A stretch of DNA of 45,730 bases, taken from contig CAMKFB010000012.1 in the NCBI GenBank assembly GCA_946411735.1, forward strand, positions 1 to 45,730, in the 5' to 3' direction. This DNA is from an uncultured Selenomonadales bacterium. Lineage in GTDB: Bacteria; Bacillota; Negativicutes; Selenomonadales; Selenomonadaceae. Below the pieces are notes generated by a model. That model was not told the DNA's origin. It saw only the letters and a list, made by a program, of their open reading frames with translations, and ran no database searches. This document shows, in pieces, positions 1-11,676 of this stretch. The translations under genes were made by a program, and so were the position numbers. Positions within the stretch are counted from its first letter, which is position 1, and each line of letters begins with the position of its first letter.

Positions 1-471
1 ACGGGAAAATCTTACAACGTCGGCGTCCTGCAGGCGCAATCGGAGCAAAACTCCGCGCGGGCGGCGCTGATCGAGTTGAGGCAAAGGCTGTCGAAATTGA
101 TCAATCTCGAGGCGTGCAATTACGGATTGTGGTTTGCGGACGTCAAGGGGCTCGACGATCGAAGCGGCGACGACAAACTCGAGGACTTCAAAACGATTCT
201 TCGCGGCATCGACAAGATTTTGAAGGACGAGCGGATTTTCGCGCCGTCGTCCGTCAATCGAACGGCGTTGGTCGCCGTCTTTTATTATTACCACAACGAG
301 TCGCATAACGGCGACGACGGGCGTCGTTGGCAAAACTTTGCGGAGCATCTCGAAAGTTTCAGGGACGGCGCCGACGGTTGGCTGGCGCGCGCGGGCTATC
401 AGCCGCTCAACGTCAAAAACATTTTCGATATGGCGGCGGCGTTCTCGTCATACGCGTATTTGAATTATTGA
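1..471 (+). CDS. C-terminal part of an unrecognised protein (5' end outside window)
   Basis: The frame is open from the first base of the window, so this is the last 156 residues of a longer protein. A TTG at 76 could start a 131-aa product, but the upstream residues look equally protein-like and no ribosome binding site precedes that TTG. I recognise no family. The visible part is mostly helical in character, with aromatic clusters (VFYYYHNE, SSYAYLNY at the very end) and no membrane segment. It ends 19 bp before the kinase-nuclease gene on the same strand, with that gene's GGGAGG site in the gap, so it is probably part of the same operon and the same predicted conflict system. A role as sensor or partner of the kinase is only a guess from position. 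Confidence 0.6.
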   Translation, partial: TGKSYNVGVLQAQSEQNSARAALIELRQRLSKLINLEACNYGLWFADVKGLDDRSGDDKLEDFKTILRGIDKILKDERIFAPSSVNRTALVAVFYYYHNESHNGDDGRRWQNFAEHLESFRDGADGWLARAGYQPLNVKNIFDMAAAFSSYAYLNY

Positions 472-490
472 GCGCGGGAGGTCGATACGA

Positions 491-10500: not shown

Positions 10501-11676
10501 AGACGCGCGGTCGGAGCGAAAGTCATAGTGCTGTCGACCGAGACGGCGGAGAACTCGAAACTGAACGCGCTCCGAAAAATTTTTGAGGAGCTGCTCGGCG
10601 ATCTCATCGATGTGAACAAGGCGCTGTTGACGACGACCTTCGCCTCGTTCGTCGGGCTGATCACGCAGGCGATCACTCTGACGGATTTTCACGGCACGAC
10701 CTTGGCGGCGCTGCTGTCGGACGCGCGCGGCACGTTTCATAAGCCGCTGAAGACCTTCAATTACCTGTTTCGAAATTACGAGCGGCATCCGCTGTCGACG
10801 CCGAAGGGCTATGACGAAACCGATCTGCCGCGGATCAGATTGCTTTGCGACAAGAAACGCTCGGCGGCGCTGGGCGATCTGAAGGAGGCGCTCGAGCACA
10901 ATCGGATCGCGTATCGAGAGTTGTCGTGGGGATCGGATTTGATCGCGGAGCGCGATCTCGACGAGCCGACGCTGCTGTTCGTCGATTGGTTCACGGTGCA
11001 GAGTCATTGGAGCCTCGATTACTTTTGCAAGGGGCTTGCGCGGCGGGAGTATCGACAGACGTACGCGATATTCGAGTCCGAAAAGGATTTCAAGGATTGG
11101 GGCGGCGATCCTTCGGCGCCTTGCCTGATGCTCGAGCACTGCGAGAGCACAAAAAATTTCCCGTCGGACATCGGCATCGCATTCAAGGCGCTGTTGCGGA
11201 CGTGGCGGCGGAAAAATTATTTGGTGGGCATCTCGTATGCGCACGAAGAAGAATTTAATCGGGAGCGCAACGCGGTCAAGCTGCTCAAGCGGTTCGTCGA
11301 GCTTGTGCAGAGTGCATTGCCGGAGCAGACGGTTCTCTTCGATCGCAATCCGACGGCGAGCCGCGACTTTCATGGCAACGGCGCGTTGGAGGCGACGCTG
11401 GATCGATACGCTCAATGCGAGTACTTTGTGATCCTCGACGATCCCTATTACGATCAGAGCGGCATCTGCGCGGCGGAGTGCTCGACGATCAAGAATCGGC
11501 TGTCGGCATTGGACGGGAACCGTCGGCTTTGGTTGCTGCATCCGAAGAACGAAAAGCACTGTGCTTTTTACGAAGAGTTCCGCGCGGGCGGCGGCTACGG
11601 CTCCGACATCACTCAAAAAAACGTTGATGAGTTGGCGCGACAGTTCGTCGACATGGTGAAGGCGGCTCGGCAATAA
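7519..11676 (+). CDS. Ski2-like helicase with C-terminal TIR-like domain
   Basis: A 1385-aa protein with a TTG start and GGGAGGG six bases upstream. Helicase motifs are GATSAGKT at 70-77, VVDELQ at 174-179 (again no DExH histidine), ATETLTIGMN and FVGRAGRLG. A helical region follows, rich in acidic residues. The last ~155 residues (from about 1232) read as a TIR-like fold: VGISYAHEEEF as the first strand and loop, TVLFDRNP, then YFVILDDPYYDQSGICAAEC, in which E1320 sits where TIR NADases carry their catalytic glutamate. I infer a nucleic-acid-sensing helicase coupled to an NAD-cleaving or signal-producing effector. This is the last gene of the operon; a terminator starts at its stop codon. 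The TIR call is moderately confident; a SEFIR-type relative is possible. Confidence 0.8.
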   Translation: MADKIRTFEDISRIHRLDHGALEGIKNRLARSMGITPERVEFTGLQRQAFNESGFWLADNEEERHIIVQGATSAGKTLISEMAILDTIKNQNKCIVLVPLRAMVRERWLHFRSDLELQGTERVYASSADYQDHDGEIINGEYTVAIIVYEKFFVMLSQSQEGQGKMLENCGLLVVDELQMLSNSNRGPKLEIAIQKVLRNNALGNNGVNTRIMCLTTSDCRVQFIERWLTIDGRKPILLINNERPTALVEHVIQFDGRYQALPIEGEAKNGSVADIELYGKNVEKKVDDDGGLLYYEGELEVPDYNKNLRSDEKKKRLLKALLNKIYARNPKAKVLIFVNGRQRTKLIARYVASEDIFPSLELSGKLREIEKYDDDDYQQLFFRELMPRRLACHNAAISTGLREYVEELFGSADDPLMLVVATETLTIGMNMPVDVMILYDHEIRRTESSERLTSQEYKNFVGRAGRLGQENMRGGRSFIFAADMDERRYFWDTYVNCRPQDIKSSLMRAGAKFQAPYYLNLLYTGKNYDGAEGYTARDLDALWRESFSYSCDGRPLNMKDVCEELRRARLCKYAEENDDDEDDAPAEKRYVLTDYGKRVTPYAFYLNTCKKINRYFFNGGYVRKKGQWQLIANKGGLPFSTTTEELEPRGYLLDILYVLCSTSEVANLGQLRLPSPDINPNESRRAKDIIENTLKEMFRAERCRFWDQSPLRQMVDGDYDWSNEQFDKECLMRAIILWHWTQGALVDHIRRETKFNFVPLVVGDIARLAETVSYQLEAISRMGYKGKESFTNFRPSDLYRLSTRVKYGVPQELVSIANRHVHALERKVVLEIGALYRRREFDYTSPPAMLRAPKENDLPEILRIMSKEMLEELLSSADDSNTHESIEHLFESIKNNPPSGRPFGDEEKEALENLYYARPADKDQFLLPWLRKIFSDETEQSTPARFFDEALTVDFPSTDENIATLTFGDKTFILIAPEDQPSDSSIREYKHHVRRAVGAKVIVLSTETAENSKLNALRKIFEELLGDLIDVNKALLTTTFASFVGLITQAITLTDFHGTTLAALLSDARGTFHKPLKTFNYLFRNYERHPLSTPKGYDETDLPRIRLLCDKKRSAALGDLKEALEHNRIAYRELSWGSDLIAERDLDEPTLLFVDWFTVQSHWSLDYFCKGLARREYRQTYAIFESEKDFKDWGGDPSAPCLMLEHCESTKNFPSDIGIAFKALLRTWRRKNYLVGISYAHEEEFNRERNAVKLLKRFVELVQSALPEQTVLFDRNPTASRDFHGNGALEATLDRYAQCEYFVILDDPYYDQSGICAAECSTIKNRLSALDGNRRLWLLHPKNEKHCAFYEEFRAGGGYGSDITQKNVDELARQFVDMVKAARQ

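Follow-up and report, generated by a model that had tools for sequence, protein, structure and literature searches.

A candidate TIR-linked immune operon built around a kinase-Rossmann-RyR-nuclease protein in an uncultured Selenomonadales bacterium

Layout and domains of the operon

This study concerns six genes, O1 to O6, at the beginning of a 45,730-nucleotide stretch of DNA (the window) from an uncultured Selenomonadales bacterium (assembly GCA_946411735.1, contig CAMKFB010000012.1, forward strand). The six open reading frames (ORFs), all on the + strand, occupy positions 1-471, 491-4066, 4149-4979, 4996-5301, 5308-7500 and 7519-11676, with gaps of 19, 82, 16, 6 and 18 bp. Purine-rich ribosome-binding sites are found upstream of O2, O5 and O6 (GGGAGG), O4 (GGAGG) and O3 (GGGAG). 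An intrinsic terminator follows O6 (11683..11724, +), comprising a hairpin (11683-11712; -22.4 kcal/mol, z -5.55, with 0 of 200 shuffles folding equally well) and a T-rich tail. ORF coordinates, gaps and hairpin folding confirm the original prediction of closely spaced same-strand genes with GGGAGG-type sites and a single terminator. The window is the entire contig C12 of a 2.4 Mb draft genome (135 contigs) and the operon begins at contig base 1, so that the sequence upstream of O1 is unreadable. The operon is probably anti-viral; a plausible description, if one short of probable, is that of a TIR-linked immune operon with a Thoeris-like logic and another reader and effector.

O2 (491..4066, +) encodes a 1191-residue protein comprising, in order, a Ser/Thr-kinase part, a Rossmann-like part, an RyR part, a middle part of unknown family and a Card1-type nuclease. 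The kinase part (491..1390, +; residues ~1-300) matches Pfam Pkinase at 5.6e-4, under the Pfam cut-off; D153 is kept in 59 and H151 in 55 of the 60 relatives with letters at these places. The Rossmann-like part (1442..2215, +; residues 318-575) is weakly of the NAD(P)-binding type, Sacchrp_dh_NADP matching at E≤1 in 22 of 32 members (best 0.0017). The RyR part (2243..2410, +; residues 585-640) scores 0.0063 and 17.2 bits against Pfam PF02026, under the cut-off of 27.4, and aligns by profile with the O4 family at probability 83 and E 9.6e-6. In an alignment of 76 proteins of at least 800 residues, window included, it is among the most conserved stretches of O2: H590 and W593 are present in 76/76, H623 in 75/76, and E589, R592, C625 and D630 in 76/76 each. 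The PD-(D/E)XK nuclease (3653..3925, +; residues 1055-1145; D1098, E1111, K1113) matches Card1_endonuc at 9.2e-8 (32.2 bits, cut-off 26.4), with the D-E-K residues kept in 57 of the 66 relatives that have the domain. The kinase, Rossmann, RyR and Card1-type nuclease domains first listed for the operon are supported, Pkinase and RyR from under the Pfam cut-off. The CARF-like reader part that had also been proposed was not borne out: O2 has no Pfam CARF match at E≤1, and the CARF_PDDEXK models among the PADLOC matches listed (best 25 of 48) match the protein from residue 1019 on, at its nuclease end. O2 resembles Card1/Can2 of type III CRISPR in its terminal nuclease domain and differs from them in having Rossmann-RyR where they have CARF.

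O4 (4996..5301, +) is a free RyR domain and a clear member of PF02026 (8.8e-34; 116.1 bits). A guide to the RyR residues is provided by RyDEP, a stand-alone phage RyR protein described in a 2026 preprint, which cleaves or sequesters cyclic ADP-ribose (cADPR) and whose ligand residues are H75, W78, H100 and D117 (PMC13232231). Binding of TIR-made messengers by RyR domains has been shown in phage proteins (PMC13232231). By motif and spacing, an equation of our own, RyDEP H75, W78 and H100 correspond to H590, W593 and H623 of O2; the D117 equivalent is less sure, the candidate column (633) holding Asp in 69 of 76 proteins and Glu in the window. In O4, H33, W36 and D75 fall at exactly the RyDEP spacing, with Thr58 at the H100 place. 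Throughout the O4 family (n = 27) the His and Trp are kept, as is the Asp (27/27); at the H100 place 26 members have Thr and one has Ser. RyDEP is a phage protein that stands alone, whereas RyR here, with the ligand His and Trp invariant in O2, shares a polypeptide with a host nuclease (O2) or is the product of an adjoining gene (O4). Eukaryotic RyR is discussed in PMC7016017.

O5 (5308..7500, +; 730 residues, motifs I, II and VI intact) and O6 (7519..11676, +; 1385 residues) are Ski2/Hel308-like helicases with Pfam DEAD and Helicase_C domains over the cut-off. O6 ends in a TIR domain (11215..11673, +; residues ~1233-1385; S1314-x-x-C1317-x-x-E1320) for which a Pfam search gives no match; the assignment is supported by the predicted fold, whose best match is SPARTA. 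The prediction of two Ski2-like helicases, one with a TIR, is upheld, as is the domain list of the operon. In SPARTA (TIR-APAZ with a short Argonaute) the TIR is driven by a nucleic-acid-binding partner, the logic proposed here for O6; it differs in that O6 carries a helicase, in one chain with the TIR, in place of the Argonaute. PADLOC models of HamB, the helicase of Hachiman (HamA nuclease and HamB helicase), match O5 (5.5e-18) and O6 (3.1e-23) partially, across the helicase core. Unlike Hachiman, the operon has two helicases, one carrying a TIR, and O1-O4 give no HamA (DUF1837) match in Pfam at E≤1.

O3 (4149..4979, +; 276 residues) is a putative QxK nuclease (E42, D74, Q88, K90) with a Gly/Ala-rich tail that is probably membrane-active. 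The earlier view of it as a QxK nuclease with a membrane tail draws on these conserved residues and on a weak match (2.6e-5) to the PADLOC candidate family PDC-M72B, and is kept as putative. O3 and O4 relatives also form a divergent pair (L078:1048-2209, -) beside TIR, TIR-vWA, O1 and O2 genes on a contig from which the helicase is absent; O3-O4 may be a separate unit. In Quinella sp. 1Q7 a 138-residue ORF of unknown family, absent from the window, separates O3 from O4 (L051:14936-15352, +).

O1 (1..471, +) consists of the last 156 residues of a protein of ~530-590 residues cut by the contig end. It is predicted to be all-helical, with good confidence, from the modelled fold of a relative (L050:7948-9537; predicted local distance difference test score, pLDDT, 87.6). 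No clear PDB match to the O1 model was found in structure comparison, and three O1 relatives gave neither a PADLOC nor a vWA match.

Gene linkage, control module and TIR neighbours

Among 189 genomes of the order, O6 is found in five (E≤1e-8), and all five carry an O2 relative; among 398 genomes of the phylum it is found in one (E≤1e-30), the window's own. O2 matches occur in 66/189 order genomes, mostly to the kinase only, and relatives extending past the kinase part in 8/189. G053, a genome of the same genus, matches the window in gene content and order, with one additional 138-residue ORF between O3 and O4. Of the other order genomes, G066 has the set divided across two contig ends; in G105 O6 directly precedes a kinase-less O2; in G093 O3, O5 and O6 share a contig and the end of O2 lies at the start of another. 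The flank 5′ of O1 varies, with a ParB-like gene in G053 and an LptA-like gene in G066. The genes do travel together, as the operon's reading as one system had anticipated: their order changes and the set stays.

A wide scan with the O2 alignment over genomes of 84,980 species matched 202 stretches, 89 of them relatives; the 80 kept represent 79 loci. Most are metagenome-assembled genomes with Firmicutes names; Synergistaceae/Synergistales contribute five and a Planctomycetia bacterium one, and rumen, gut or faeces figure in many of the titles. Together with L039 and the window they make 81 loci, whose mechanically called ORFs were grouped by single-linkage BLASTP. The O1 cluster is present in 50/81 loci, a 236-residue PP2C-type cluster in 39/81 (identity confirmed on one member, PF13672 9.8e-19) and the free RyR cluster in 27/81. 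BLASTP matches to O3, O5 and O6 are confined to loci from the window's genus. What is widely conserved is O1, PP2C, the kinase-Rossmann-RyR-nuclease protein and free RyR, and not the window's six-gene set; in this clustering the window operon is without a PP2C gene.

Linkage to the kinase was assessed in the 60 loci whose upstream sequence spans 2.5 kb or more, out of 73 left after the near-duplicates L080, L118 and L120 were dropped. The 47 kinase-bearing loci have O1 in 41 and PP2C in 31; the 13 kinase-less loci have neither (Fisher 5e-9 for O1, 1e-5 for PP2C), so that O1, PP2C and the kinase make up a single control module on a Rossmann-RyR-nuclease core. TIR presence is alike in the two groups (18/47 and 4/13). 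Quinella loci have O1 and the kinase, without PP2C between them. Relatives in which the kinase adjoins PP2C (31 of 47 kinase-bearing loci) resemble TerY-P-type systems, which are vWA-PP2C-kinase triads. The present system differs from these in that O1 is predicted all-helical with no vWA match in three relatives, and the window is without PP2C. One TIR-vWA protein does occur as a neighbour in L036/L078. In a genome of the same genus with kinase-type O2 matches only, an O1-like 907-residue protein adjoins a free RyR gene (L136:795-3918; G061:C351).

A custom TIR hidden Markov model (HMM) identified 44 TIR ORFs in 26/81 loci; of the 43 of sufficient length for alignment, 42 keep the TIR glutamate. 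Among the nearest non-core neighbours (n = 104; window, L039, L080, L118 and L120 left out) TIR_2 ranks first among Pfam families (14), followed by TPR_12 (8), ThsB_TIR (6), DUF4062 (4) and NACHT (3). TIR_2 is present in 47/50 O2-locus genomes, with 214 matches in 137.8 Mb. Even spread would place ~1.5 TIR ORFs in the 0.94 Mb of the loci, against 38 observed in 22/50 loci. This ~25-fold enrichment is approximate: it covers 50 of the 79 loci, with rounded sizes, and counts loci by the custom HMM and whole genomes by PF13676. Within loci, TIRs are more frequent in the O2 operon (17/149) than elsewhere (24/591; p 0.001). In the order, where TIR_2 occurs in 16/189 genomes, TIR_2 or O6 is found in 8/8 O2 genomes against 13/181 others, a comparison that is partly circular because O6 was found here; TIR_2 alone gives 3/8 against 13/181 (p 0.02). 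TIR architectures comprise TIR-STAND-TPR-RyR (L057), TIR-NB-ARC-TPR (L064), TIR-Sel1 (L120), TIR-vWA (L036/L078) and the window's helicase-TIR. Because TIR proteins of several architectures recur beside O2, the TIR seems to be an exchangeable source of the signal rather than one among several effectors. In L057 (3899-7336, +) a single protein combining TIR, STAND NTPase, TPR and RyR (9.8e-28) lies directly upstream of O1-PP2C-O2.

A proposed receptor for a TIR-made messenger

In Thoeris, the TIR protein ThsB makes cADPR and the effector ThsA reads it. The present loci are alike in that a TIR protein is encoded next to another protein, the putative reader and effector, and the TIR neighbours in L078 match PADLOC ThsB models. 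They differ in that the putative reader is Rossmann-RyR, the effector a Card1-type nuclease, and the control module kinase, PP2C and O1; no ThsA-type effector model (SIR2-SLOG or macro-domain) is among the PADLOC matches listed for O1-O6 (best 25 for O2, O5 and O6). We regard the TIR-signal logic as the part shared with Thoeris, and reader, effector and control module as the parts that set the operon apart. As originally claimed, we found no named system with this gene set: among the PADLOC matches listed, Pfam and NCBIfam, parts only are matched, partially or weakly (HamB, PD-T4-6, PDC-M72B, PDC-M23B). Literature searches, which missed most subscription papers, did not find a host operon with RyR and TIR; an earlier description is possible.

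We propose, tentatively, that RyR is the host receptor for a TIR-made ADP-ribose messenger, in a conserved kinase-Rossmann-RyR-nuclease core served by swappable TIR sensors, among them a nucleic-acid-scanning Ski2-like helicase-TIR. The order of events, ligand, NAD+ chemistry and defensive role that we infer would be as follows. O6, with its partner O5, would engage foreign or aberrant nucleic acid, upon which its TIR domains would assemble and convert NAD+ to an ADP-ribose-type signal. This molecule would bind the RyR pocket of the O2 Rossmann-RyR part and the free RyR protein O4; binding would turn on the O2 nuclease, and the ensuing degradation of nucleic acid would stop phage or cell. The N-terminal kinase of O2, O1 and, in other genomes, the PP2C phosphatase would set the threshold, and O3 would act as a second, membrane-tethered nuclease. 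Elsewhere, TIR-STAND-TPR, TIR-Sel1 and TIR-vWA sensors would serve the same core. Of the multi-effector system first envisaged, the domains, operon and co-travel stand; the CARF-like reader does not, the TIR is recast as a swappable signal maker, and the conserved set is a different one.

To our knowledge, few host readers of TIR-made messengers are known. If true, the proposal would add a reader class to NAD+-derived immunity and provide a bacterial counterpart of the proposed animal cADPR-RyR link, with a setting for the old question of a direct action of cADPR-type molecules on RyR domains. The RyR pocket, its His and Trp invariant, lies in a widespread nuclease-bearing host protein, and TIR genes adjoin that protein at far above the expected frequency. 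The receptor-ligand prediction is direct and assayable, and O6 would be the first named candidate helicase-TIR sensor.

Several points weigh against this proposal. TIR genes cluster in islands anyway, and 55/81 loci have no TIR by the custom HMM in the stretch covered, the same HMM missing O6-type TIRs too. The Thr at the H100 place of O4 may change its ligand. The window's O2 lacks, in frame, 127 alignment columns right after H623 (window 2366-2440, residues ~626-650) that are present in L050 and at least half of which are retained in every one of the 75 other proteins. The gap is either genuine or an artefact of assembly, and the window's copy may accordingly be impaired or misassembled. Finally, the immune RyR proteins in print act for phages (PMC13232231).

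The TIR might instead be the killer, O6 sensing nucleic acid and depleting NAD+ while the RyR and Rossmann parts of O2/O4 sense NAD+ loss or linear ADP-ribose and, in turn, hold the response back, reset it or strengthen it. We consider this unlikely. In its favour, O6 has the TIR fold and Glu, many bacterial TIRs are depleting NADases, the closest fold is SPARTA, and the O2 Rossmann part is weakly NAD(P)-like. Set against this are the conservation of the nuclease effector in O2 and the fusion of many TIR neighbours to STAND/TPR sensors, where the nuclease resides in a distinct protein, O2. Two independent adjoining systems, one of O1-kinase-RyR-nuclease type and one in which O3 joins a Hachiman-like pair of helicases, would account for the presence of O2 without O5/O6 in most loci, the partial HamB resemblance and the separate O3-O4 pair of L078. 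This is doubtful, given that among the 189 order genomes all five with O6 have O2 too, that linkage is kept despite order changes, and that other TIR proteins occupy O6's place beside O2. That O4 and the O2 RyR are an off-switch, sponging or cleaving the TIR signal against self-harm as RyDEP does for phages, is improbable; the catalytic-dyad His and Asp are indeed kept in O4, but fusion of RyR to the nuclease and its strong conservation suit a reader, and 7 of 8 RyDEP homologues tested did not cleave (PMC13232231). A stress or NAD+-homeostasis pathway outside defence is very improbable, for although kinase-PP2C pairs serve many roles, the patchy spread, the TIR/STAND neighbours, the Card1-type nuclease and the conjugative coupling-protein cluster found in 8/81 loci (one member confirmed) all speak against it.

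Neighbouring genes and other RyR proteins

Clp-protease-like and type IV coupling-protein genes lie near some O2 loci (8/81 each; e.g. L057:14415-16268, +), hinting at conjugative elements nearby. In the window, a transfer-messenger RNA (tmRNA) gene is found at 12163-12515 (-), 486 bp past the operon end; islands commonly insert at genes of this type. In other families of the class, proteins of 860-876 residues (L137:7534-10113, -; L139:7909-10536, -) combine a weak AAA ATPase match with a C-terminal RyR and, as read from their domains, represent another bacterial RyR architecture.
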